From: Aromatoleum petrolei
GTDB taxonomy: Bacteria > Pseudomonadota > Gammaproteobacteria > Burkholderiales > Rhodocyclaceae
Direction: 5' to 3'
Assembly (NCBI RefSeq): GCF_017894385.1
Contig: NZ_CP059560.1
Coordinates: forward strand, 2,108,001 to 2,172,000
Length of the DNA stretch: 64,000 nucleotides
In this document: one piece after another, positions 4,523-58,682 of the stretch
Numbering within the stretch: position 1 is the first letter of the stretch
How the letters are laid out: each line of letters starts with the position of its first letter
Notes under the pieces: generated by a model
Told to the model about the DNA's origin: nothing
The model's input: only the letters and a program-made list of their open reading frames with translations
The model's database searches: none
Program-made: the position numbers and the translations under genes

Positions 4523-5278
4523 ATGCCGCCCGCGCTCAAAGCCCTGTTCGCCCAGCTTGCCGGCTGGGCCTGCGCCATCGTTCTGGCTCGCGCCGGATGG
4601 CTGCCGCCCGGCATCTGGGCGCTTGCCGGCACCCAGGCGCTGTGCGCCACGGTCGCGGCGGCGGCGATGCGCAGCGCGCGCTGGTGGCTGTTCATCCATG
4701 CTGCGTTCGCGCCGCTGCTGATCATAGCCGGGCGGGCGGACATCGCGCCGGCGTGGTATCTGGCGGCGTTCGCGCTGCTGCTCGTCGTGTATTGGACGAG
4801 CTTCCGCACGCAGGTGCCGCTCTACCTCTCGAACCACGCAACGATCGGCGCACTGGCGGCGCTGTTGCCGGTCGGACGGTCGGTGCGCGTGCTGGATCTG
4901 GGCAGCGGGACGGGTTCGCTGCTGCGCGGGCTGGCACGCCTGCGCCCCGACAGCCACTTCGACGGCGTGGAAGCCGCGCCCGCACCGTGGCTGCTGAGCC
5001 GCCTGCTTGCCCGTGCGGCGGGGCGGATCTCGGTCCGGCGCGGGGATTTCTTCGCGGAGTCGTGGGCCTCCTATGACGTCGTCTATGCGTTCCTCTCGCC
5101 GGTTCCCATGGCGCGCGTGTGGAGCAAGGCGGCGCAGGAACTCGCGCCCGGCGCGCTCGTCGTAAGCAACAGTTTTCCGATTCCCGGCCGTAAACCGGAC
5201 GAGGTCGTGGCGGTCGGCGACCGAAGGGCGACGCGGCTGTACGTGTATCGCGTGACGGACGGGCGGGCGTCGAAATAG
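4523..5278 (+). CDS. Membrane-anchored class I SAM-dependent methyltransferase
   Basis: A 251-residue protein. The first 90 residues are strongly hydrophobic and hold about three membrane segments. A Rossmann methyltransferase domain follows, with the SAM-binding motif VLDLGSGTGSLLRGLARL near residue 121 and an acidic second strand (FDGVEAAP). The upstream frame stays open for another 110 codons but runs antisense-like inside the preceding gene and has no methyltransferase character, so the ATG at 4523 was chosen. It lies 59 bases after the oxidoreductase gene and may be cotranscribed. The substrate is unknown. Relatives are annotated only as class I SAM-dependent methyltransferases. Confidence 0.8.
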   Translation: MPPALKALFAQLAGWACAIVLARAGWLPPGIWALAGTQALCATVAAAAMRSARWWLFIHAAFAPLLIIAGRADIAPAWYLAAFALLLVVYWTSFRTQVPLYLSNHATIGALAALLPVGRSVRVLDLGSGTGSLLRGLARLRPDSHFDGVEAAPAPWLLSRLLARAAGRISVRRGDFFAESWASYDVVYAFLSPVPMARVWSKAAQELAPGALVVSNSFPIPGRKPDEVVAVGDRRATRLYVYRVTDGRASK

Positions 5279-45990: not shown

Positions 45991-46019
45991 TCGACGCTCA
46001 GGCGTGAAATAGCCATAAT
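45991..46019 (+). promoter_or_regulatory. Candidate sigma-70 promoter of the VOC gene
   Basis: TCGACG (45991-45996) and CATAAT (46014-46019) are separated by 17 bases. The -10 matches the consensus at five of six positions, while the -35 is weaker. The -10 lies inside the shared palindrome, so a protein on that site would block the promoter. Confidence 0.5.
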
Positions 46020-46026
46020 TATGAAT
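46013..46026. promoter_or_regulatory. Shared 14-bp operator candidate, copy 1 (perfect palindrome CATAATTATG)
   Basis: CCATAATTATGAAT contains the ten-base perfect palindrome CATAATTATG at 46014-46023. It lies 33 bases before the VOC start and overlaps the predicted -10 box. The same 14 bases recur at 57928-57941 between the methylmalonyl-CoA mutase gene and its divergent GntR/FCD regulator. In DNA this GC-rich an exact repeat of an A/T-rich 14-mer at two functionally linked promoters is unlikely to be chance. Confidence 0.7.
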
Positions 46027-46058
46027 TCTTAATCCAAACGCCCCACGGAGATACTTCC

Positions 46059-46535
46059 ATGACGCAGCGCCCGTTCAAGATCCTCGGTATCCAGCAGATC
46101 GCCATCGGCGGCCCGAGCAAGGACAAGCTCAAGACCCTGTGGGTCGACATGCTCGGACTGGAAGTGACCGGCAACTTCGTGAGCGAGCGCGAGAACGTCG
46201 ACGAGGACATCTGCGCGATGGGCAATGGCCCGTTCAAGGTCGAAGTGGACCTGATGCAACCGCTGGACCCGGAAAAGAAGCCGGCCGTGCATGCGACGCC
46301 GCTCAACCACGTCGGCCTGTGGGTGGACGATCTGCCGACGGCGGTGGAATGGCTCTCCGCGAACGGCGTGCGCTTCGCCCCGGGCGGCATCCGCCGAGGC
46401 GCCGCGGGCTACGACATCACTTTCCTGCACCCGAAGGGCAACGACGAGTTCCCGATCGGCGGCGAAGGCGTGCTGGTCGAACTGGTCCAGGCCCCGGCTG
46501 AAGTCGTCGAGGCCTTTGCGAAGCTCGCGGGCTGA
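46059..46535 (+). CDS. VOC-family protein, probable methylmalonyl-CoA epimerase
   Basis: A 158-residue vicinal-oxygen-chelate protein with two beta-alpha-beta-beta-beta modules: [20 protein letters not shown] and [18 protein letters not shown]. The last strand [12 protein letters not shown] is the classic end of methylmalonyl-CoA epimerases, with the metal-binding glutamate. The first metal ligand, normally His in DHIGIAV, is Gln here (IQQIAI). Methylmalonyl-CoA epimerase turns the S form made by propionyl-CoA carboxylase into the R form needed by the mutase. No other epimerase is in the window, and the operator shared with the mutase promoter supports this role. A glyoxalase-like activity remains an alternative. 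GGAG lies 8 bases before the ATG. Confidence 0.78.
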
Positions 46536-46572
46536 AGCCGCTCCCACATGGCATGCCCCGGCGAAATCCTGA

Positions 46573-47439
46573 CTAAAGCTTCGCAGTATTGAAGGTATCG
46601 CAGGACTTCAGCGAGCCCCTCTCCAGCCCGATGCGGAACCAGCGCACGCGCTGTGCGGAACTGCCGTGCGTGAAGCTGTCGGGCATCACGCGCCCCTGCG
46701 ACTGCTGCAGGCGGTCGTCGCCGATCGCGGTCGCGGCGCCGAGCGCCTCCTCGACGTCGCCGGCTTCCAGCACCTGACGGCTGCGGTCGGCGTGGTGGGC
46801 CCACACGCCCGCCAGGCAGTCGGCCTGCAGTTCCAGGCGCACCGACAACTGGTTGCCCTGGCGCTCCGACACACGCTGGCGTGCCTGTTGCACCTTGTCC
46901 GAGATCCCGAGCAGGTTCTGCACATGGTGGCCGATCTCATGCGCGATCACATAGGCCTGGGCAAAGTCGCCGGGCGCGCGGAAACGGTTCTTCAGCTCGT
47001 TGAAAAAGGACAGATCGCGATAGACCTTCTGGTCCGCGGGACAGTAGAAGGGGCCCATCGCCGCCTGCCCGACGCCGCAGGCGCTGCGCGTCGCGCCGGT
47101 GTAGAGCACCATGCGCGGCTCGTTATAGCGCCCGCCGGCCGCCTTGAAGATCGTCCCCCAGGTGTCCTCGGTATCCGCCAGCACCATCGATGCGAAGCGC
47201 GCCAGCTCGTCCTCCGCCGGCGAGCGCGGCGCCGAACGGCGCACTGCCTCGGCCGGCCGCGGCTGCGTGACACTTGCGGTGTCCAGCACCACACGCGGGT
47301 CGATGCCGAAGTACATCGCCACCAGCGCGATCACGATCGTGCCGACGCCGATGCTGCGGCCACCGCCGAAGCCCCCGCCGCCCCCATCGTCGCGTCGATC
47401 CTCGATGTTGTCGCTCTCGCGGCCGTTGCGAAACAGCAT
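46573..47439 (-). CDS. ypfJ: YpfJ-family neutral zinc metallopeptidase
   Basis: A 288-residue membrane-anchored protein. A glycine-rich cytosolic start (DDGGGGGFGGGRSIGVG) and one membrane segment (IVIALVAMYFGI) precede the periplasmic peptidase. The zinc motif is HEIGHH at 167-172, with ADCLAGVWAHHAD containing the third-ligand region. Length and layout equal those of E. coli YpfJ, whose substrates are unknown. It is convergent with the VOC gene and ends 37 bases from it. Confidence 0.93.
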   Translation of the reverse strand: MLFRNGRESDNIEDRRDDGGGGGFGGGRSIGVGTIVIALVAMYFGIDPRVVLDTASVTQPRPAEAVRRSAPRSPAEDELARFASMVLADTEDTWGTIFKAAGGRYNEPRMVLYTGATRSACGVGQAAMGPFYCPADQKVYRDLSFFNELKNRFRAPGDFAQAYVIAHEIGHHVQNLLGISDKVQQARQRVSERQGNQLSVRLELQADCLAGVWAHHADRSRQVLEAGDVEEALGAATAIGDDRLQQSQGRVMPDSFTHGSSAQRVRWFRIGLERGSLKSCDTFNTAKL

Positions 47440-47547
47440 GCGCCTTCCCCGTCCTTCAATGACCCGTAAAAATCATATTATGGACCAGCGTGCCCCGCCC
47501 TCCGCTTGCGGCGCGTAACGAGGGGTGAGCGGCCGGGCGCCCGCGCC

Positions 47548-48708
47548 TCAGTTGCCCGGCTGCAGCGTCACCGACAGGTTCAGCTCCTTGCCCTCGCGCA
47601 ACACGCCGAGCTTAACGGTGTCGCCCACGCGGTGGTCGTCGAGGCGGGCCGTGAGCTTCGCGACCGAGTCGACCTCCTGCCCGTCCAGCGACACGATGAT
47701 GTCGCCCGGATAGAAACGGCCGTCGCGCTCCTGCCGGATCCCTCGCAGGCCGGCCTTGTCCGCAGCCGAGCCGGGCATCACACGCAGCACCACGATGCCC
47801 TCGACCTCGAGTTCTTCCAGCAGGCGCGCGTTCACGTCCTCGTCGATCTGAATGCCCAGCACCGGGCGGACATACAGGCCGTGCTTGATGAGTTGCGGCA
47901 CGACGCGCATCACGGTATCGACCGGAACCGCGAAGCCGATCCCGGCCGAGGCGCCCGAGGGGCTGTAGATCGCCGTGTTGATGCCGATCAGCCGCCCGTT
48001 GGAGTCGAGCAAGGGGCCGCCCGAATTGCCGGGATTGATTGCCGCGTCGGTCTGGATCAGGTGCTCGATCGTCGTCTCGCCGTCCTCGCCGGGCAGGGAG
48101 CGATCGAGCGCCGAGACGATGCCGGTGGTGAGCGTCCAGTCCAGCCCGAAGGGATTGCCGATCGCGAACACCTTCTGCCCCACCTTGAGGTCGCCGCTCG
48201 TGCCGATCGGCACCGGCGGCGGGCGCTTGAAACCCACCCCGATCCGCAGCACCGCGATGTCGTGCGCGGGACTCGCCCCGATCAGTGCGGCCTGGTAATC
48301 GCGCCCGTCGGCGAGCTTCACGGTCGCCTGCGAGGCGCCCCGGATCACGTGGAAATTCGTCACGACGTGACCGGCGTCATCCCAGATGAAGCCCGAGCCG
48401 GTGCCACGCGGCACCTGCATGACATTGCGCGTCCACGCATCGCGCACCAGTTGGGCCGTGCTGATGAAGACCACCGAATCGCGCGCATGCTCGAACAATT
48501 CGATGGTGGACTTCTCGTCTGCGGCCAGGTCGCCACGCGGCGTCACCGTGCGCTCGGCCGCCTGCTTGGGGCTGAACCAGTCCTCGATGACCGGCTGCAG
48601 CCACCAAAACACCATCAGCGCCGCCGCAGCGAGGGTCACCAGGAGCAGGCGCCGCAGGAAGCGGTCGCGCACGGGCGCGGAGTCGGGAAATCGGGAATCG
48701 GGTCTCAT
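47548..48708 (-). CDS. Membrane-anchored trypsin-PDZ serine protease (DegS/HtrA family)
   Basis: A 386-residue HtrA-type protease. One N-terminal membrane anchor (RRLLLVTLAAAALMVFWWL, residues 19-37) replaces a cleaved signal. The catalytic triad is visible as H120 (VTNFHVI), D150 (AHDIAVL) and S229 (INPGNSGGPL). A single PDZ domain follows (VLGIQIDEDVNARLLEEL to the end). One PDZ plus an anchor is the DegS layout, but the family is broad, so regulated cleavage of an anti-sigma factor is only a possibility. ATG 48708 begins MRPDSRFPDSAPVRDR; the longer frame is not conserved. Confidence 0.9.
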   Translation of the reverse strand: MRPDSRFPDSAPVRDRFLRRLLLVTLAAAALMVFWWLQPVIEDWFSPKQAAERTVTPRGDLAADEKSTIELFEHARDSVVFISTAQLVRDAWTRNVMQVPRGTGSGFIWDDAGHVVTNFHVIRGASQATVKLADGRDYQAALIGASPAHDIAVLRIGVGFKRPPPVPIGTSGDLKVGQKVFAIGNPFGLDWTLTTGIVSALDRSLPGEDGETTIEHLIQTDAAINPGNSGGPLLDSNGRLIGINTAIYSPSGASAGIGFAVPVDTVMRVVPQLIKHGLYVRPVLGIQIDEDVNARLLEELEVEGIVVLRVMPGSAADKAGLRGIRQERDGRFYPGDIIVSLDGQEVDSVAKLTARLDDHRVGDTVKLGVLREGKELNLSVTLQPGN

Positions 48709-48766
48709 GATCACGTCGAAATTGGAAAACAGCGGAAACGGGCCAGGGCGCCGCTGTCCGTGCCCT

Positions 48767-49174
48767 TCAGTGGCGGACGATCGACTCGGCCACCTTTGCG
48801 AACGCTGCGACGAGTTGAGCACGCAGTTCCACGTCGGCGACCTGCTCCTCCAGCGCTCGCGTCATGCAGAGCATCCACGCGTCGCGCGCGGCGCTATCAA
48901 CGCCGAAGCGGGCATGGGCGCGGCCCAGTCGCGGCGGGCCGTGGCGTTCTGCATACAGGGGAGGGCCGCCCAGCCAGCCCGACAGGAACATGAAGAGCTT
49001 TTCCTTCGAATGGCCGAGATCCTGAGGGTGCATCGCCCGAATCGCCACCGCCTCCGGTAGTTCGTCCATGAGTTCGTAGAAGCGCTCAACCAGCCGGCGT
49101 ACGGCGGGCTCGCCGCCGAGCTTCTCGTAATGCGGATTTGCGTTAGCAGCGACTTTCGGTGATTGCGGGTGCAT
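48767..49174 (-). CDS. Group II truncated haemoglobin
   Basis: A 135-residue globin. It opens with PHYEKLGGEPAVRRLVERFY and shows HPQDLGHSKEKLFMFLSGWLGGPPLY, the proximal-histidine segment PPRLGRAHARFGV and the group II tryptophan in RDAWMLCM. TrHbII proteins bind oxygen or nitric oxide and often help in NO or peroxide handling. The ATG at 49174 fits the family; the 19 residues upstream in frame are not globin-like. It lies 58 bases upstream of the protease start on the same strand. Confidence 0.92.
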   Translation of the reverse strand: MHPQSPKVAANANPHYEKLGGEPAVRRLVERFYELMDELPEAVAIRAMHPQDLGHSKEKLFMFLSGWLGGPPLYAERHGPPRLGRAHARFGVDSAARDAWMLCMTRALEEQVADVELRAQLVAAFAKVAESIVRH

Positions 49175-49339
49175 CAAGAAATCCTCAAGGGGCGACCGGC
49201 GATTGCCGGACGGAGTGCGCTGCCCGCGCATGTCCTTTACGGTACGAGCGGCGATGGCAAGGCGCCGTGTGTAAACGAGCAGGTCGGAGGACGCCGGATC
49301 AGAGCCGGAATCCTCCGCTTGAAGGGTGTCCGACCAGGA

Positions 49340-49495
49340 TCAGCAGTTCCCCTTCTTCGCCTGTCCCGGCGGACAGAAACCGCCGCCCGAGCCGCCGGGG
49401 CCGCCCGGGTCGACCACAACCGAACCGGCCGGCGTGTAGACGGCACACGCGCCGAGGAGCGACGCCAGCGCAATCAGGGCAAGAAACCGCTTCAT
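49340..49495 (-). CDS. Small putative lipoprotein
   Basis: A 51-residue protein with a lipoprotein signal peptide (MKRFLALIALASLLGAC, lipobox LLGAC) followed by a short Gly/Pro-rich mature part that ends FCPPGQAKKGNC. GGAGG lies just before the ATG. Only the signal sequence and ribosome site support it. The two C-terminal cysteines could form a disulphide. The function is unknown. Confidence 0.65.
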   Translation of the reverse strand: MKRFLALIALASLLGACAVYTPAGSVVVDPGGPGGSGGGFCPPGQAKKGNC

Positions 49496-49577
49496 GCAAC
49501 CTCCGCAGTTCAAGGAATAAGGCGCAATCATAGCGCGCCAGCGGGCATGCCCCGGGGCTGCAGGCGTGCGGATGATT

Positions 49578-50384
49578 TCAATCGGGCTCGCGCTCCGCAA
49601 GGGCGCGTGCCGCCGAGATGCGTTCGGCGCTGTCCGGATGAGTAGCGAGGAAGGCGAATCGCTCCGGCTGTCCGCTGATGGAGAGCTTCTCGAAGAAGCG
49701 CACCGCCCCCGCGGGGTCGTAGCCCGCGCGCAGCATGTAGGCGATGCCCGCCTCGTCCGCGGCGCGCTCATCGTCGCGGCTGTAACCGTTCTCGGCCAAG
49801 CTGGTGGCGAGTTCCGCGAAGATCGGCGTCAGAGGGAAGGCCACCACCGTGAGGAGCACGCTCGCGATCGCCACCAGGCCGCCGGTTTCGTTGCGGCGCG
49901 ACAGGCGTTGCTCGGAATGGCGCAGGTTCAGGTGCGCCAACTCGTGTCCGATCAGCGCCGCCCATGCGGCCTCGTCCGCGCCGAGCAGCTCGACCATGCC
50001 GGAGTGGATACCGATCACGCCGTCCTTGCCCGAGCGCATTGCGAAGGCGTTGGCGCTGGGGTCGTCGACCAGCAGGAACTGCGGACGTGCACCCGGCGTG
50101 GTCGCCCCCATGCGTCGCGCCGCCGTCCAGGCTGCGCGCAGGGCCTCCCCGTCGAACCAGCGCACGGCGCCCTGCACCTGCACGCCGACCCGCCGCCCCT
50201 CGGCGGCGCCGAGCTCCGCCAGCGGCCACGCCGCCGCGTGGCCGTTGTGTCGCGGCCCCTTGCTCCGCGGGTGCGGGTTCTCTGCGGACGGATGGCCCGC
50301 CGGCGGCTGCATCGCACATCCGCCTGCCAGTACCAGCATCAGCGCGAGCGCACACCTCCGGCCGTGGGCTCCGAGCTTCATCAT
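49578..50384 (-). CDS. M48-family metalloprotease lipoprotein
   Basis: A 268-residue lipoprotein with lipobox LAGGC at residue 23. The zinc motif HELAH at 147-151 lies in WAALIGHELAHLNLRHSEQ. The third-ligand region is YSRDDERAADEAGIAYM. This is the compact M48C/LoiP-like periplasmic form involved in outer-membrane protein quality control. ATG 50384 is used; a second ATG follows directly, and the upstream frame lacks a signal peptide. The gene is alone, reading toward the small lipoprotein gene. Confidence 0.9.
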   Translation of the reverse strand: MMKLGAHGRRCALALMLVLAGGCAMQPPAGHPSAENPHPRSKGPRHNGHAAAWPLAELGAAEGRRVGVQVQGAVRWFDGEALRAAWTAARRMGATTPGARPQFLLVDDPSANAFAMRSGKDGVIGIHSGMVELLGADEAAWAALIGHELAHLNLRHSEQRLSRRNETGGLVAIASVLLTVVAFPLTPIFAELATSLAENGYSRDDERAADEAGIAYMLRAGYDPAGAVRFFEKLSISGQPERFAFLATHPDSAERISAARALAEREPD

Positions 50385-50535
50385 CCGGACGGGCAATCCA
50401 TGCGCCAATTCATTCCGAAAGCATACACAAGGAATGCCGGCAGGGGCTATCGCCGCGATCGCGGGCTCGTCCCGGCATTCCCGCAGCCCGACCGCCTTCG
50501 GTCGATCGCGCACCGACGCCCGCATAAAAGGGAAA

Positions 50536-50553
50536 GGCCTGCTCGCGCAGGCC
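50536..50553 (-). terminator. Rho-independent terminator of the propionyl-CoA operon
   Basis: GGCCTGC and GCAGGCC form a seven-pair stem, extended by flanking A-T pairs, with a TCGC loop. Read leftward it runs into TTTCCCTTTTAT. It lies 52 bases past the pccA stop, the last gene of the operon. Confidence 0.85.
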
Positions 50554-50604
50554 CTTCCGGTATTGCGACAGGCGCCGCCGCAGATGCGGCGGCGGCCGTC
50601 CCGA

Positions 50605-52596
50605 TCACTCGAACTCGATGATGACTTCGTCGACGGACAGGCTCGCACCCGGCTTCGCGACGAGCTTCTTCACCTTGCCGTCCTGCTCGGCCTTGAGCAC
50701 GTTCTCCATCTTCATCGCCTCGATGATCGCGAGCTTCTCGCCCGCCTTCACTTCCTGGCCTTCGGCGACGCAGATGTCGCGCAGCAGGCCCGGCATCGGC
50801 GACAGCAGGAACTTCGACATGTCCGGCGGCAGCTTCTCCGGCATCATCGCCAGCAGCTCGGCAGCGCGTTCCGTCATCACGATCGGCTCGACCTGCAGGC
50901 CGAAGTGCGAGATGCGGTAGCGCAGGCCGCGACGCTCGATCTGCAGGCAGATCGGGGAACCGTTCACCGTGCCCTGGAACAGCAGATCACCGAAAGTCCA
51001 GTCCGACGCGATGCGATAGGTCTTGTCGGCATGCGTGATGTCGAAGCCTTCGGCGGACGCCTCGACCGCCATGTGGTACTGCTTGCCGCCCATCACGACG
51101 ACCCAGTCCTGGCCCACCTTGCGACCGTGACCGGCGAGCTGGCCATCGATCTGCACGGCACGACCGATGTAGCGCAAGCGGGCAAAAGTCGCGACCGCCG
51201 CGAGCAGCGCGGGATCGTCGTGCGGCACCATCGACGCGTCGAAGCCCTGCGGGTACTCCTCGGCGATGAAGCCGGTGTTGAAGTTGCCCGAGCAGAAGCG
51301 CGGATGCTGCAGGAGCGCCGCCTGGAACGGGATGTTCGAGCTGATGCCGCGGATCACGAAGGCGTTGAGCGCGTCGCGCATGCGCTCGATCGCCTGCTCG
51401 CGGTTCGCGCCATGGACGATCAGCTTCGCGATCATCGAGTCGTAGAACATCGAGATCTCGCCGCCTTCATACACGCCGGTGTCGACGCGCACCTGGCCCT
51501 CGACCTCCTTCGGCGCCTGGAACTTCACGAGGCGGCCGGTGGAAGGCAGGAAGCCGCGGAACGGGTCTTCCGCGTTGATGCGGCATTCCATCGACCAGCC
51601 GTTGATCTTCACGTCGGCCTGCGTGATCGGCAGCTTCTCGCCGTTGGCGACGCGGATCATCTGCTCGACCAAATCGAGGCCGGTGATCAGTTCGGTGACC
51701 GGGTGCTCGACCTGCAGGCGGGTGTTCATCTCCAGGAAGTAGAACTCCTTGGTCGCACCGCTGACGACGAACTCGACCGTGCCGGCCGATTCGTAATTCA
51801 CCGCGCGCGCCAGCGCCACGGCCTGCTCGCCCATCGCCTTGCGCATGTCGGCGTCGACGAAGGGGCTCGGCGCCTCCTCGATGACCTTCTGGTGACGGCG
51901 CTGGATCGAGCAGTCGCGCTCGTTCAGATACACGTAGTTGCCGTGCGAGTCGCCCAGCACCTGGATCTCGATGTGGCGCGGCTCGAGCACGTACTTCTCG
52001 ATGAACACGCGGTCGTCGCCGAACGAGGCCTTGGCTTCATTCACGCAGGACGAGAAGCCTTCGAAGGCTTCCTGGTCGTTGAACGCAACGCGCAGGCCCT
52101 TGCCGCCGCCACCGGCGGAGGCCTTGATCATCACCGGGTAACCGATCTTCTTGGCGATCTCGACCGCCTCGGCCGGGCCGGCGATCGCGTCGTTGTAGCC
52201 GGGGATGGTATTCACACCGGCTTCGATCGCGAGCTTCTTCGACTCGATCTTGTCGCCCATCTTCGCGACCGAGTAGTGCTTCGGCCCGATGAACTTGATG
52301 CCTTCCTCTTCCAGGCGGCGCGAGAACTCGGCGTTCTCCGACAGGAAGCCGTAGCCCGGATGGACCGCCTCGGCGCCGGTCTGCTTGCAGGCGGCGATGA
52401 TCTTGTCCATGACCAGGTAGGACTCTTTCGACGGCGCCGGCCCAATGCACACGGCCTCGTCGGCGAGCTCGACGAAGAGCGCGTCCTTGTCGGCTTCCGA
52501 ATGCACGGCAACGGTGGCGATGCCCATCTTGCGGGCGGTCTTGATCACGCGGCAGGCGATTTCACCGCGGTTTGCGATCAGTATTTTTTTAAACAT
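50605..52596 (-). CDS. pccA: Propionyl-CoA carboxylase biotin-carboxylase/biotin-carrier subunit
   Basis: A 663-residue subunit that carboxylates biotin and carries it to PccB for making methylmalonyl-CoA. The biotin carboxylase half starts MFKKILIANRGEIACRVI and shows the ATP-grasp motif KASAGGGGKGLRVA and EMNTRLQVEHPVTE. The C-terminal carrier domain has the biotinylation motif EAMKMEN with K629. The start is preceded by GGAG. Its first codons are unusually A/T-rich (TTTAAAAAAATA) for this genome, and a near-copy of its first 36 bases, with GC-rich synonymous codons, lies 118 bases upstream. Confidence 0.95.
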   Translation of the reverse strand: MFKKILIANRGEIACRVIKTARKMGIATVAVHSEADKDALFVELADEAVCIGPAPSKESYLVMDKIIAACKQTGAEAVHPGYGFLSENAEFSRRLEEEGIKFIGPKHYSVAKMGDKIESKKLAIEAGVNTIPGYNDAIAGPAEAVEIAKKIGYPVMIKASAGGGGKGLRVAFNDQEAFEGFSSCVNEAKASFGDDRVFIEKYVLEPRHIEIQVLGDSHGNYVYLNERDCSIQRRHQKVIEEAPSPFVDADMRKAMGEQAVALARAVNYESAGTVEFVVSGATKEFYFLEMNTRLQVEHPVTELITGLDLVEQMIRVANGEKLPITQADVKINGWSMECRINAEDPFRGFLPSTGRLVKFQAPKEVEGQVRVDTGVYEGGEISMFYDSMIAKLIVHGANREQAIERMRDALNAFVIRGISSNIPFQAALLQHPRFCSGNFNTGFIAEEYPQGFDASMVPHDDPALLAAVATFARLRYIGRAVQIDGQLAGHGRKVGQDWVVVMGGKQYHMAVEASAEGFDITHADKTYRIASDWTFGDLLFQGTVNGSPICLQIERRGLRYRISHFGLQVEPIVMTERAAELLAMMPEKLPPDMSKFLLSPMPGLLRDICVAEGQEVKAGEKLAIIEAMKMENVLKAEQDGKVKKLVAKPGASLSVDEVIIEFE
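52561..52596 (-). repeat. Direct repeat, copy A (5' end of pccA)
   Basis: The first 36 bases of pccA match the block at 52679-52714 at 30 of 36 positions. Five of the six differences are synonymous in the encoded peptide (MFKKILIANRG) and the sixth turns Glu into Asp at the twelfth codon. Confidence 0.85.
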
Positions 52597-52714
52597 TCAT
52601 GGTCTCCGCGGTGAAACCGCCTGCGCACGCTTCGCGTGCAAGGCAATGTGACTTCGTCGCTGCGCCGCTTCGCGGCTGGTCACCGCGGTTTGCAATCAGG
52701 ATCTTCTTGAACAT
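52586..52714 (-). pseudogene. Remnant second biotin-carboxylase start upstream of pccA
   Basis: From the ATG at 52714 the frame reads MFKKILIANRGD, nearly identical to the pccA N terminus, and then 30 unrelated residues (rich in Ala, Arg and Gly) before a stop at 52586, ten bases inside pccA. GAGAGG lies 11 bases before this ATG. It looks like the stump of a duplicated or replaced carboxylase gene, with a small hairpin (GCACGC-TTC-GCGTGC, 52625-52639) in the intervening DNA. It could still be translated as a 42-residue leader and so affect pccA expression. No function is claimed. Confidence 0.7.
52679..52714 (-). repeat. Direct repeat, copy B (duplicate of the pccA 5' end)
   Basis: This block encodes MFKKILIANRGD with codons typical of the genome (AAG, ATC, CTG). 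It is the GC-rich partner of the repeat at 52561-52596. Confidence 0.85.
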
Positions 52715-52738
52715 GTCTTTATGAACCTCTCGCGGCGA

Positions 52739-54271
<1,533 letters not shown>

Positions 54272-54368
54272 TGATGACCTCCTTGACTTGTTCTGCTGTC
54301 CCCGACCTTGTGCCGGCCGGGCGTTCAACTTCAATTCTGTTCGGAAGGATGCGCCCCTGCCCTGGGTT

Positions 54369-55385
54369 CTAGCCCGCATCCTTCTCGACGTAGCGGAGCA
54401 ATCGCATCGCGGCAGCCGAAGGCGTCGTCGTGCCCTCCTCCACCGCACGCGCCAGTCCCGGCAATTCGTGCTTCACCTGCGCGTGGCTGCGGAAATGGCT
54501 GCGCAGCCCGGCATCGATCAGATCCCACATCCACGCCAGCGCCTGATGGCGTCGCTTGGCCTCGAACTCGCCGGAGGCCTGCATCGCCTTGCGGTAGTCC
54601 GTCACCGCCGTCCAGAAATCGGCGATGCCCTGCTTCTGCAAGGCCGAGAGCGTCAGCACCGGCACCGTCCAGTTCAGGCTCGCCGGCCGCAGCATGTGCA
54701 GCGCCGTCTTCATCTGCGACTTCGCACGCATCGCCGCACCGGCGTCGATGTCGGCCTTGTTGATGACGATCAGGTCGGCGATCTCCATGATGCCTTTCTT
54801 GATCGCCTGCAGATCGTCACCCGCGTTGGGCAGCTGCAGCAGGCAGAAGATGTCGCTCATGCCGGCGACCGCGGTCTCGGACTGGCCGACGCCGACCGTT
54901 TCGATGATGATCACGTCGAAGCCCGCCGCCTCGCACACCAGCATCGTCTCGCGCGTCTTCTCGGCGACGCCGCCCAGGCTGCCCGCCGACGGGCTGGGGC
55001 GGATGAAGGCGGCGGGGTTCTGCGACAGCAGCTCCATGCGCGTCTTGTCGCCGAGGATGGAGCCGCCGGTGAGCGACGAGGACGGATCCACCGCCAGCAC
55101 CGCAACGCGCAGCCCCAGCTCGATCAGGTACAGACCCAGCGCCTCGATGAAGGTGGACTTACCGACCCCCGGCACGCCGGAAATGCCCACGCGCATCGCG
55201 CCGCCGGTATGCGGCAGCAGCGCTTCGAGCACGTGGCGCGCGCGTGCCTTGTGGTCCTCGCGCTGCGACTCGATCAGCGTGATCGTCTTCGCGAGCGGGC
55301 GCAGCTGGCGCGCGAGCACGCCGTCGACCAGCGCCTGGTCGGCGGCGTCGAGCACGGGCAGATGTTCGGGCTTGTTCATCGGCAT
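54369..55385 (-). CDS. meaB: MeaB/ArgK-type GTPase, chaperone of methylmalonyl-CoA mutase
   Basis: A 338-residue G3E GTPase that loads and protects the B12 cofactor of methylmalonyl-CoA mutase. The P-loop is [17 protein letters not shown]. Other motifs are [20 protein letters not shown], the Walker B region [12 protein letters not shown] and base recognition in VINKAD. The start is uncertain: ATGs at 55385, 55379 and 55442 are all in frame and none has a clear ribosome site. 55385 gives the usual N terminus. It follows the mutase gene by 126 bases, the normal genetic context. Confidence 0.92.
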
Positions 55386-55511
55386 CGAGGCGTCAACGAG
55401 GCGGTTCACGTAGGGCGGGAGGAAAGAAGCGTATCCCGCCATTCCAACGATGAAAACGGGTTCGCGCGGGAGGTGGCGGGATGCGTTGCACCCCGCCACC
55501 CGACCTGAAGA

Positions 55512-57671
55512 TCAGGCCTTCGCCGCGCGGATCTGCTTCAGCACTTCGCGCGCGGCCGCCGGAATCGGCGTGCCCGGCCCGAAGATGCCTTTTGCCCCGG
55601 CAGCATACAGCGCATCGTAGTCCTGCGCGGGGATCACGCCGCCGACGAAGACGACGATGTCGTCCGCGCCGAGGCGCTTGAGCTCATTGACGATCTGCGG
55701 CACGAGCGTCTTGTGGCCCGCAGCGAGGCTCGAGCAGCCGACCGCATGCACGTCGTTCTCGACGGCGTGGCGTGCGGCTTCTTCCGGCGTCTGGAAGAGC
55801 GGGCCGATGTCGATGTCGAAGCCGAGGTCGGCGAAGGCCGACGCGACGACCTTCGCGCCGCGGTCGTGGCCGTCCTGGCCGAGCTTGGCGATCATGATGC
55901 GCGGGCGGCGGCCCTCTTCAGCGACGAAGGCTTCGATGTCGGCCTTCAGTTCCTTCCAGTCGGCATCGTTTTCCACGACGGCTCCATACACGCCGGACAC
56001 GGCCTGCGGGTTGGCACGATAGCGGCCGAAGACCTTCTCCAGCGCGTCCGAGATCTCGCCGACGGTCGCACGCAGGCGCACGGCCTTCACCGACAGGTCG
56101 AGCAGGTTGCCCTCATTGGTCTCGGCGCACTTGGTCAGCGCGTCCAGCGCGGCCTGCACGGCGGCGTTGTCGCGCGTCGCGCGGATCTTCGTCAGGCGGG
56201 CAACCTGCGCCTCGCGCACCGCGTGGTTGTCGATGTCGAGGATTTCGATCGGATCTTCCTTCGCCAGCTTGTACTTGTTCACGCCGACGATGACATCCTT
56301 GCCCGAGTCGATGCGCGCCTGCTTGTCCGCCGCGCATTCCTCGACCTTCATCTTGGCCCAGCCGGACTCGACCGCCTTGGTCATGCCGCCCATCGCCTCG
56401 ATTTCCTCGATCAGGCTCCAGGCCTTGTCGGCCATGTCCTGCGTGAGCTTCTCCATCATGTAGGAGCCGGCCCACGGATCGACGACGTTACAGATGTGCG
56501 TCTCTTCCTGGATGATGATCTGCGTGTTGCGCGCGATACGGGCCGAGAACTCGGTCGGCAGCGCGATCGCCTCGTCGAGCGCGTTGGTGTGCAGCGACTG
56601 CGTGCCGCCGAACACCGCGGCCATCGCCTCGATCGTCGTGCGCACGACGTTGTTGTACGGGTCCTGCTCGGTGAGCGACCAGCCGGAAGTCTGCGAGTGC
56701 GTGCGCAGCATCATCGACTTCGCGCTCTTCGGGTTGAACTGCTTCATGATCCGCCACCACAGCAGACGCGCCGCGCGCATCTTGGCGATCTCGAGGTAGA
56801 AGTTCATGCCGACTGCCCAGAAGAAGGACAGGCGGCCGGCGAAGGTGTCGACGTCCATGCCGCTGTTGATGCCGGTGCGCACGTACTCCATGCCGTCGGC
56901 GAGCGTGAATGCGAGCTCGATCGCCTGGTTCGCGCCCGCTTCCTGGATGTGATAGCCGGAGATCGAGATCGAGTTGAACTTCGGCATGTGCTGCGCCGTG
57001 TACCCGAAGATGTCGGCGATGATCTTCATCGACGGCGTCGGCGGGTAGATATAGGTGTTGCGGACCATGAACTCCTTGAGGATGTCGTTCTGGATGGTCC
57101 CGGACAGCTTGTCCTGGCTCACGCCCTGCTCTTCGGCGGCGACGATGTAGCCGGCGAGGATGGGCAGCACGGCGCCGTTCATCGTCATCGACACCGACAC
57201 CTTATCGAGCGGAATCTCGTTGAAGAGGATCTTCATGTCCTCGACCGAGTCGATCGCCACGCCGGCCTTGCCGACGTCACCGACCACGCGGGGATTGTCG
57301 GAGTCGTAGCCGCGGTGCGTCGCGAGGTCGAACGCCACCGACACGCCCTGTCCGCCGGCGGCGAGCGCCTTGCGGTAGAAGGCGTTGGAAGCCTCGGCGG
57401 TCGAAAAGCCCGCGTACTGGCGGATCGTCCACGGCTTGACCGCATACATCGTCGGCTGCGGACCGCGCAGGAAGGGCTCGAAGCCGGGCAGCGTGTCGGC
57501 GTGCTGCAGGTCGGCGGTGTCGGCCTTCGTATACAGCGGCTTCACCGCGATGCCTTCGGGCGTCACCCAGTTGAGCTTCTCCACGTCGCCACCCGGCGCA
57601 TGTTTCGCGGCAGCCTTGTTCCAGGCTTCCAGGTCCGACTGGGGATAAGCCGGCATCTTGTCGTTCGGCAT
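55512..57671 (-). CDS. scpA: Methylmalonyl-CoA mutase (single-chain, B12-dependent)
   Basis: A 719-residue mutase of normal length that converts (R)-methylmalonyl-CoA to succinyl-CoA. The substrate barrel shows [19 protein letters not shown], with the Tyr typical of methylmalonyl- rather than isobutyryl-CoA mutases, and [20 protein letters not shown]. The C-terminal cobalamin domain has [11 protein letters not shown] with the cobalt ligand H602. It is the first gene of the leftward operon mutase-meaB-pccB-pccA. ATG 57671 ([17 protein letters not shown]) follows GGAGAGGG. It is distinct from the fused mutase icmF at 34.8-38.1 kb. Confidence 0.96.
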
Positions 57672-57894
57672 GACAAACCCTCTCCGATTCCAATGGCCGC
57701 GGCTAGCGGCGTTGCGATTTTGTGTGCTGCAGGTCAGACGGTTTCCTGGCGACGACGAGACCGCCCGCAGTCCGAAGACTGCAGGCGGTCGCCGGCGCTC
57801 CCATGCATTCGGCGTAGCTCCCTCTCCCTCTCGTTGCGCAGCAGACCAAGGGTCCGCCAACGCAAGCTCCCAATCCTACGCCGCACATGGGAAG

Positions 57895-57923
57895 TTGACT
57901 TGTACCGTCGCACAAATAATACT
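57895..57923 (+). promoter_or_regulatory. Candidate promoter of the GntR/FCD regulator
   Basis: TTGACT (57895-57900) and AATACT (57918-57923) are separated by 17 bases and read rightward toward the regulator at 58011. The shared palindrome begins five bases after this -10 box, where the transcript would start, so it is placed for autorepression. Confidence 0.5.
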
Positions 57924-57945
57924 TTATCCATAATTATGAATGCAA
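57916..57945 (-). promoter_or_regulatory. Candidate promoter of the methylmalonyl-CoA mutase operon
   Basis: Read leftward, TTGCAT (57945-57940) and TATTAT (57921-57916) are separated by 18 bases and match sigma-70 elements well. The palindrome CATAATTATG lies entirely in the spacer, the classic position for a repressor. Confidence 0.6.
57928..57941. promoter_or_regulatory. Shared 14-bp operator candidate, copy 2 (perfect palindrome CATAATTATG)
   Basis: This block is identical to the one at 46013-46026. The palindrome is at 57929-57938, in the 339-base divergent region (57672-58010) between the mutase operon and its GntR/FCD regulator. It overlaps the leftward promoter spacer and the presumed start region of the rightward promoter. 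The rest of the divergent region shows no other strong repeat. Confidence 0.75.
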
Positions 57946-58010
57946 CTGTCCGTGAGTCGGGATTTCGACGACAATCCGGCCCGCAACATTTCGCACACCG
58001 AACAGCACCC

Positions 58011-58682
58011 ATGACCGCCACCCGCATCGCCCCGCTCGCGCTGTACCAGGAAGTCGCCGAGCGGCTGCGCCAGCTCATCTTCTCGCACGAACTGGCGCCC
58101 GGCACCTGGATCGACGAGCAGGCGCTCGCCGACAACTACGGCATCTCGCGCACGCCGCTGCGCGAGGCGCTGAAGGTGCTTGCCTCCGAAGGGCTCGTCA
58201 CGCTCAAGCCGCGCCGCGGGTGCTACGTGACCGAGATTTCCGAGCGCGATCTCGACGAGATCTTCGCCGTGATGGCCCTGCTCGAAGGCCAGTGCGCCCA
58301 GACCACGGCGCAGAAGGCCAGCGACGCGGACCTCGGCCGCCTGCGCGAGATCCACGCCGGACTCGAGAAGGCGGCGACGGCGGACGACATCAACGGCTTC
58401 TTCGAGTCGAACCAGGCCTTCCACCTCGCGCTGCAGGAGATCGCCGACAACCGCTGGCTGCAGCACGCCATCGAGGACCTGCGCCGCGTGATCAAGCTGT
58501 CGCGCCATCACTCGCTGTTCGGCGAAGGCCGCCTCGAGCAGTCGCTCGCCGAACACCGCGAGCTCCTCGCCGCGCTCACCGAGCGCCGTGCGGATGACGC
58601 GGAGCGACTGATGCGCGCCCACATCAGCAGCGGCCGCGCGGCCCTCGTGCGCATCGCCAAGGCGCGCAACAAGGTCGCCTGA
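58011..58682 (+). CDS. GntR-family (FCD) transcription regulator, probable propionyl-CoA pathway regulator
   Basis: A 223-residue FadR/FCD-type regulator. The winged HTH lies at about residues 10-75 (LADNYGISRTPLREALKVLASEGLVTL, then RRGCYVTEI). The all-helical FCD ligand domain follows (FFESNQAFHLALQEIADN, LAEHRELLAAL), including histidines that bind metal or carboxylate ligands in relatives. It diverges from the mutase operon, with a palindrome on the promoters between them, so it probably represses that operon and itself until a pathway acyl-CoA or acid appears. The direct target evidence is positional only. Confidence 0.9.
   Translation: MTATRIAPLALYQEVAERLRQLIFSHELAPGTWIDEQALADNYGISRTPLREALKVLASEGLVTLKPRRGCYVTEISERDLDEIFAVMALLEGQCAQTTAQKASDADLGRLREIHAGLEKAATADDINGFFESNQAFHLALQEIADNRWLQHAIEDLRRVIKLSRHHSLFGEGRLEQSLAEHRELLAALTERRADDAERLMRAHISSGRAALVRIAKARNKVA

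Follow-up and report, generated by a model that had tools for sequence, protein, structure and literature searches.

The stretch of Aromatoleum petrolei DNA considered here (the window, that is, the whole 64,000-nucleotide segment that was analysed, C1:2108001-2172000 of a genome made of one contig of 5,407,396 bp) raises the question of why the same A/T-rich 14-mer, CCATAATTATGAAT, is found both between a methylmalonyl-CoA mutase operon and a divergent gntR gene, and, 12 kb away, upstream of a separate gene of the VOC superfamily. The answer that we consider highly likely is that its core, CATAATTATG, serves as operator for the GntR/FCD protein encoded at 58011-58682, a putative repressor, which would control the mutase operon, gntR itself and the VOC gene and, in related bacteria, sucC and genes serving the supply of bicarbonate and biotin. 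The elements in question are the following:

57928..57941: Site 1, the 14-mer CCATAATTATGAAT, in the intergenic region of gntR and the mutase operon; its palindromic core, CATAATTATG, at 57929-57938
46013..46026: Site 2, the identical 14-mer, upstream of the VOC gene; core palindrome at 46014-46023
58011..58682, plus strand: gntR, a regulator of the GntR/FCD (FadR-subfamily) type by Pfam, 223 amino acids; proposed repressor of both sites

The identity and the rarity of the two sites were obtained by computation. A sequence-only reading of this DNA had reported identical palindromic 14-bp sites at 46013-46026 and 57928-57941, and had expected an A/T-rich 14-mer to be very rare here. Both copies lie exactly at these positions, and the palindrome holds for the 10-bp core, not for the full 14 bp. 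From the base composition of the window, the 14-mer is expected 0.0011 times and the core 0.357 times in 5,407,396 bp, and a scan of the whole genome (5.41 Mb) found the core in two places only, Sites 1 and 2, and not, as the same reading had allowed for, at many unrelated promoters. Within the window, allowing up to three mismatches yielded four matches versus 0.52 expected (four or more in 0/100 shuffles), these being Sites 1 and 2, each counted on both strands. At up to one mismatch to the core, the genome holds 11 places (two exact, nine with one mismatch) and the reversed control also gives 11, so that weaker sites are not enriched; inspection by eye of the nine recognised no pathway promoter, one of them falling within an acyl-CoA-dehydrogenase-like frame. 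In this genome, only Sites 1 and 2 are supported as the regulon.

Conservation at orthologous loci, which had been set beforehand as a check, was computed as well, and was found at 77/80 gntR loci and at 34/109 VOC promoters of gntR-bearing genomes. Relatives of the regulator were found at 95 loci, 80 of which were kept for comparison; the 77 carry the core upstream of gntR in the same flanking context (67 exact, eight with one mismatch, two with two), and all of them have the mutase in divergent orientation. The three loci lacking the site (L080-L082, from Polynucleobacter) encode regulators with an identity of only 49-51%, and the DNA examined there gave no match to the mutase. The site is retained at L078, another locus from Polynucleobacter and thus from outside the family, whose gntR is 56% identical. 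Two of the three, L080 and L082, do have a string with two mismatches, but it lies 331-346 bp upstream and in a different context, so that a two-mismatch match alone means little. In a class-level sample, the 14-mer TTCATAATTATGAA occurred in 10/369 genomes (own included) and the reversed control also in 10, which leaves no excess outside the family. As a separate observation, in L078, which belongs to a metagenome-assembled Polynucleobacter genome, gntR (at 4644) is preceded at a distance of about 25 bp by a perfect palindrome of 20 bp, GAATTCATAATTATGAATTC, possibly the ideal form of the operator.

The genes that would be under control in the window are these:

55512..57671, minus strand: methylmalonyl-CoA mutase, 719 amino acids, first gene of the target operon (Pfam/NCBIfam)
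54369..55499, minus strand: meaB, mutase-associated GTPase (Pfam/NCBIfam)
52739..54268, minus strand: pccB, carboxyltransferase subunit of propionyl-CoA carboxylase (Pfam Carboxyl_trans)
50605..52596, minus strand: pccA, biotin carboxylase subunit with PCC_BT and biotinyl domains (Pfam)
46059..46535, plus strand: VOC-superfamily gene, 158 amino acids, probable non-canonical methylmalonyl-CoA epimerase (Pfam Glyoxalase_4)

Alignment of 76 distinct sequences delimits a conserved block around Site 1 that reads as an operator plus promoter, and the elements proposed there and at Site 2 are as follows:

57916..57946: 31-bp conserved block, ATAATACTKTATCCATAATTATGRANGCAAG, operator with overlapping promoter elements
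57940..57945, minus strand: TTGCAT, putative -35 for the mutase operon, by eye; overlaps the conserved plus-strand GCAA
57916..57921, minus strand: TATTAT, putative -10 for the mutase operon, by eye; 18 bp from the -35
57895..57923, plus strand: promoter-like site of gntR, TTGACT-17-AATACT, by promoter scan; the operator begins 5 bp downstream
45991..46019, plus strand: promoter-like site of the VOC gene, TCGACG-17-CATAAT, by promoter scan; its -10 lies inside the palindrome

The CATAATTA part of the core is invariant in 76/76 sequences and conservation drops at both ends of the block. The GCAA 3' of the core has its C, A and A each in 76/76 and its G in 71/76, and the columns of the mutase -10 are conserved in 73-75 of 76. 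The mutase -35 matches the consensus at 3/6 positions, and both mutase elements were missed by the promoter scan; judged by eye, the operator falls in the 18-bp spacer of TTGCAT-18-TATTAT on the minus strand. The sequence-only reading had placed the palindrome on the -10 or in the spacer of plausible promoters, and this agrees with the VOC -10 inside it and with the mutase spacer (by eye) that holds it. Operator positions in the spacer, on the -10 or just after it are typical of repression, and it is from these positions that we infer repression by GntR. Of the proposal of a small regulon under one repressor, the regulon finds strong comparative support in site conservation and in the association with gntR, and the repressor, read from site positions, is weaker than had been stated. 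That GntR instead activates, or both activates and represses, is unlikely: the conserved block reaching well past the palindrome speaks for it, whereas an operator in the proposed mutase spacer (by eye), on the VOC -10 and just past the gntR -10 speaks against it. PMC4494728 reports that GntR-family operators can have additional half-sites at 7-12 nt from their centre, and by analogy the TTATC beside CATAATTATG resembles such half-sites.

Evidence on the identity of the binder comes from the distribution of site and regulator across 150 Rhodocyclaceae-type genomes from 68 genera, in which gntR presence was set at E<=1e-50 (114 gntR-bearing and 36 gntR-less genomes, the latter class being open to incomplete genomes). 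The core was found in 111/114 gntR-bearing versus 8/36 gntR-less genomes (Fisher p=6e-20, although the genomes share descent and the counts are not independent, so that this and later p-values are guides only), and the 13-mer CATAATTATGAAT in 91/114 versus 1/36, with its reversed version in 0/150. A control palindrome of the same composition that contains TATAAT, CATTATAATG, occurred in 25/114 versus 10/36 (p=0.5). In the three genera g8, g20 and g46, which are of mixed gntR status, the members with gntR have the core and those without it do not. The mutase promoters of gntR-less genomes (covered in 19/20 genomes with a mutase; G014, with its gene start missing, was excluded) showed the site at up to one mismatch in 0/20 stretches and at two mismatches in one, as in the shuffles, which for all promoter stretches were mononucleotide. 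These results bear on the possibility that the palindrome is the operator of another regulator and gntR merely a member of its regulon. This is improbable: it can draw on the departure of the site from the subfamily's GT/AC consensus and on the fact that binding by GntR is predicted from sequence, but the site tracks gntR in the 150 genomes and, where the mutase is kept but gntR is not, the promoter stretches do not have it at up to one mismatch, also within g8, g20 and g46. Thus the palindrome is very probably the binding site of the adjoining GntR-type regulator.

The second site can be followed in the same genomes, 134/150 of which have VOC relatives; the upstream regions covered belong to 109 of the 111 gntR-bearing genomes with a VOC gene (G063 and G123 were left out, as were two regions of G131 and that of G138 among the gntR-less). 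The site was found at up to one mismatch in 34/109, and four more had two mismatches, G140 and G104 at the usual position. Among gntR-less genomes, 0/20 stretches had it at up to one mismatch, and the comparison with G035 included is 34/109 versus 1/21 (p=0.014). In the single-contig genomes G112 and G147, contig coordinates place the VOC gene 3.66 and 3.0 Mb away from gntR (on a circular contig, the shorter way would be about 0.56 and 0.57 Mb), and it has the site with one mismatch; because VOC is remote from gntR there, the site is not present by linkage. In G041, which has no VOC site, a biotinyl-domain-like pccA end is encoded just upstream of VOC (by eye), which suggests that VOC joined the pcc operon.

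Together with the shared descent of the genomes, several results weigh against the GntR operator and its proposed targets. Three of the 114 gntR-bearing genomes (G043, G063 and G123) have no core, and 8/36 gntR-less genomes hold it somewhere; one of these, G035 (82% complete), has neither gntR nor mutase, yet an exact site at VOC. In genus g44, the gntR-less member has no core, and neither has one of the two gntR-bearing members (G043). The VOC site is absent (more than one mismatch) in 75/109 gntR-bearing genomes, which makes it a minority feature of the family, and it is enriched among the most similar VOC genes (22/29 gntR-bearing loci versus 12/80 others). Two-mismatch strings occur in 4/20 gntR-less VOC stretches versus 0.9 in shuffles, and are possible remnants of the site. 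The regulator's subfamily consensus, taken up below, is not matched by CATAATTATG. Finally, the VOC protein scores 45-46 bits (46.1 in the NCBIfam comparison) with the methylmalonyl-CoA epimerase model TIGR03081, far short of the cut-off of 114.95. The assignment of this protein as the epimerase is weaker than the sequence-only reading had it: it is the best of six TIGR03081 matches in its own genome, none of them over the cut-off, and it matches solved epimerases weakly (3rmu, E=6e-4), from which a non-canonical methylmalonyl-CoA epimerase appears probable. Its metal-site residues seem by eye to differ from those of epimerases. The relatives of this protein are named lactoylglutathione lyase or VOC family protein in their source annotations.

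A further body of evidence for the GntR operator comes from additional sites in relatives. The 13-mer CATAATTATGAAT has 126 occurrences, 79 within 400 bp of gntR, seven at VOC (one of them that of G035) and 40 elsewhere, and 35 of these 40 are at pathway-linked genes as identified by tblastn, with representatives confirmed with Pfam; thus, in relatives too, a scatter over many unrelated promoters, which the sequence-only reading had named as telling against it, is not what is found. Nineteen precede sucC, six directly (at 130-187 bp) and 13 through a same-strand DUF2889 gene, whose match ends 42-143 bp before sucC and from whose start the site is in most cases 69-203 bp away; L242 is included among the 13 (a partial DUF2889 match with an extrapolated start 30 bp before the site), the automatic tally being 12. 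Seven precede a beta-carbonic anhydrase gene (L243, L244, L245, L253, L261, L267 and L273), 19-53 bp before its start, four precede bioB (L252, L256, L270 and L277), three the gene of a branched-chain amino-acid-type periplasmic binding protein, one the gene for GTP-dependent phosphoenolpyruvate carboxykinase (GTP-PEPCK, pckG) and one that for isocitrate dehydrogenase (icd). The remaining five comprise two before an uncharacterised gene and three without gene assignment (L263, L269 and L272). Five loci with the 10-mer only were also examined: at one of them the site stands before DUF2889-sucC, at another before GTP-PEPCK, and at L241, L246 and L248 before no recognised gene. When 50 DUF2889 upstream regions were surveyed (47 from gntR-bearing and three from gntR-less genomes; 20/50 were shuffled), 15 had the site at up to one mismatch, all among the 18 orthologues closest to the query; no site precedes the DUF2889 gene of the A. 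petrolei genome (L327).

The product of sucC converts succinyl-CoA to succinate, carbonic anhydrase and BioB provide the carboxylase with bicarbonate and biotin, respectively, and PEPCK feeds gluconeogenesis. From these added sites it would follow that GntR governs the flux from propionyl-CoA through succinyl-CoA to the tricarboxylic acid (TCA) cycle, as well as the bicarbonate and biotin of the carboxylase. The carbonic anhydrase sites are suggestive of a bicarbonate supply matched to carboxylase demand. BirA regulons are apparently nonexistent in beta- and alphaproteobacteria according to PMC5343134, and the bioB operators may represent the missing biotin control of betaproteobacteria.

Some observations on the genes and stretches around these sites can be set apart. 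In 14/14 loci that have both genes (for example L240, L254, L259, L268 and L274-L276), the DUF2889 gene immediately precedes sucC in the same orientation and carries the operator. Its residues C88, C121, H123 and C159 (P0121 numbering) are invariant in 39 sequences and might form a metal or Fe-S site; a structural resemblance to IscU, the best match of the model, was too weak to count. A gene without Pfam match in two related genomes (L257:1602-2159 and L258:1535-2113) has a palindrome, ATTCATAATTATGAAT, at its start. In two genomes, L241 and L246 share the same short CATAATTATG-bearing stretch in opposite orientation, with no convincing gene nearby.

The positions of the additional sites are also relevant to the proposal that the shared 14-mer is a strong A/T-rich promoter element (a -10 and its flanks) with no regulator in common. 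TATAATTATG variants at many VOC promoters do form a perfect -10, but the same-composition TATAAT palindrome occurs in 35/150 genomes with no gntR association, the sites lie 130-187 bp from sucC and 69-203 bp from most DUF2889 starts, and there are only two copies in the A. petrolei genome, which makes this proposal very improbable. Chance coincidence of the two copies, for which only the 10-mer expectation of 0.36 could be invoked, can practically be discarded in view of the 0.0011 expected for the 14-mer, of both copies being at one pathway and of their conservation in relatives.

All these observations can be integrated in a model of a GntR repressor. A GntR dimer would bind the palindrome between the divergent promoters of gntR and of mutase-meaB-pccB-pccA, providing autoregulation and control of the operon, and the same protein would bind the second, identical palindrome, which includes the -10 of VOC, the putative epimerase gene with a promoter of its own. 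Bound GntR would block RNA polymerase until released by an effector that we infer to be a metabolite of propionyl-CoA metabolism. In relatives, the site would have been added to sucC (directly or as DUF2889-sucC), beta-carbonic anhydrase, bioB, GTP-PEPCK and others. A broader proposal, which we regard as somewhat better than even, is that in much of the Rhodocyclaceae-type bacteria, Accumulibacter (L023) among them, the assimilation of propionyl-CoA is under a single master regulator, a GntR/FCD protein whose operator lacks GT, co-controlling, across lineages, carboxylase, bioB, carbonic anhydrase, epimerase, mutase and succinyl-CoA synthetase, and that DUF2889 belongs to the pathway. The methylmalonyl-CoA pathway would thereby be given a regulator, an operator sequence and a list of targets in a family to which both anaerobic degraders of aromatics (Aromatoleum) and bacteria of wastewater (Accumulibacter, Dechloromonas) belong. 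The prediction is that some such cells couple the supply of biotin and bicarbonate to the demand of propionyl-CoA carboxylase; a non-canonical epimerase is also indicated, and DUF2889 would have a role in metabolism.

The regulator itself belongs to the GntR family, FCD (FadR-type) subfamily, its product scoring 75.4 bits with GntR (cut-off 27) and 99.2 bits with FCD (cut-off 24.3); none of the 22 NCBIfam models listed (such as PhnR, NanR and LldR) exceeded its cut-off, the best being TIGR03338 with 132.3 bits versus 271.5. It is 99% identical to its Aromatoleum evansii counterpart. In the target operon, the top NCBIfam match of PccB is the methylmalonyl-CoA decarboxylase subunit alpha subfamily, under the cut-off. 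Residues 44-49, 51-53 and 55-58 of the helix-turn-helix (HTH) region of the regulator are invariant in 77/77 orthologues, as an invariant operator would demand. Gln37 and Pro49 are also present in 77/77, as well as in three paralogues without the site, and, by alignment with E. coli FadR, presumably correspond to HTH positions 28 and 40. In PMC4494728, an HTH Arg at position 28 prefers G/C and a Pro at position 40 avoids it. Gln37 and Pro49 would therefore be loosely compatible with a site without G there, although the paralogues that lack the site share both residues.

How does this system compare with those already described? Systems of this kind are known. Among the titles and opening lines of abstracts listed in searches of the open-licence literature, no GntR regulator or CATAATTATG operator of a mutase/pcc operon was found, nor the predicted regulon itself, and an earlier prediction may exist elsewhere. 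The FadR-subfamily regulators of PMC4494728 are alike in combining GntR with FCD and in having an A/T-rich palindrome in a divergent intergenic region and a local operon. Their operator consensus is TKGT/ACMA, with GT and AC 2-3 nt apart, whereas CATAATTATG is an even 10-bp palindrome without GT/AC boxes and does not meet it. As to proteins acting in related metabolism, the second-best solved relative of the gntR product is PDB 7xp0, which we take to be PmiR. PmiR, like PrpR, is associated with the methylcitrate cycle, and the regulator considered here with the methylmalonyl-CoA pathway. PmiR from Pseudomonas aeruginosa, a 2-methylisocitrate sensor, is alike in being a GntR-type protein in propionyl-CoA metabolism, and so is PrpR, named among the FadR-subfamily groups in PMC4494728, whose operator has a GT-N2-AC spacing from which the motif described here differs. 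PccR from Rhodobacter sphaeroides also regulates the methylmalonyl-CoA pathway but, according to PMC10370305, is of the ScfR family and described as an activator. BioR of alphaproteobacteria (PMC5343134 and PMC4494728) is likewise of the GntR family with a palindrome without GT/AC boxes, and is cited in the latter as an exception to the FadR-subfamily consensus; its operator, TTATMKATAA, is in neither site of the window (by eye), and, while bioB stands beside the site in four loci, the main targets of the regulator proposed here are those of the propionyl-CoA pathway.

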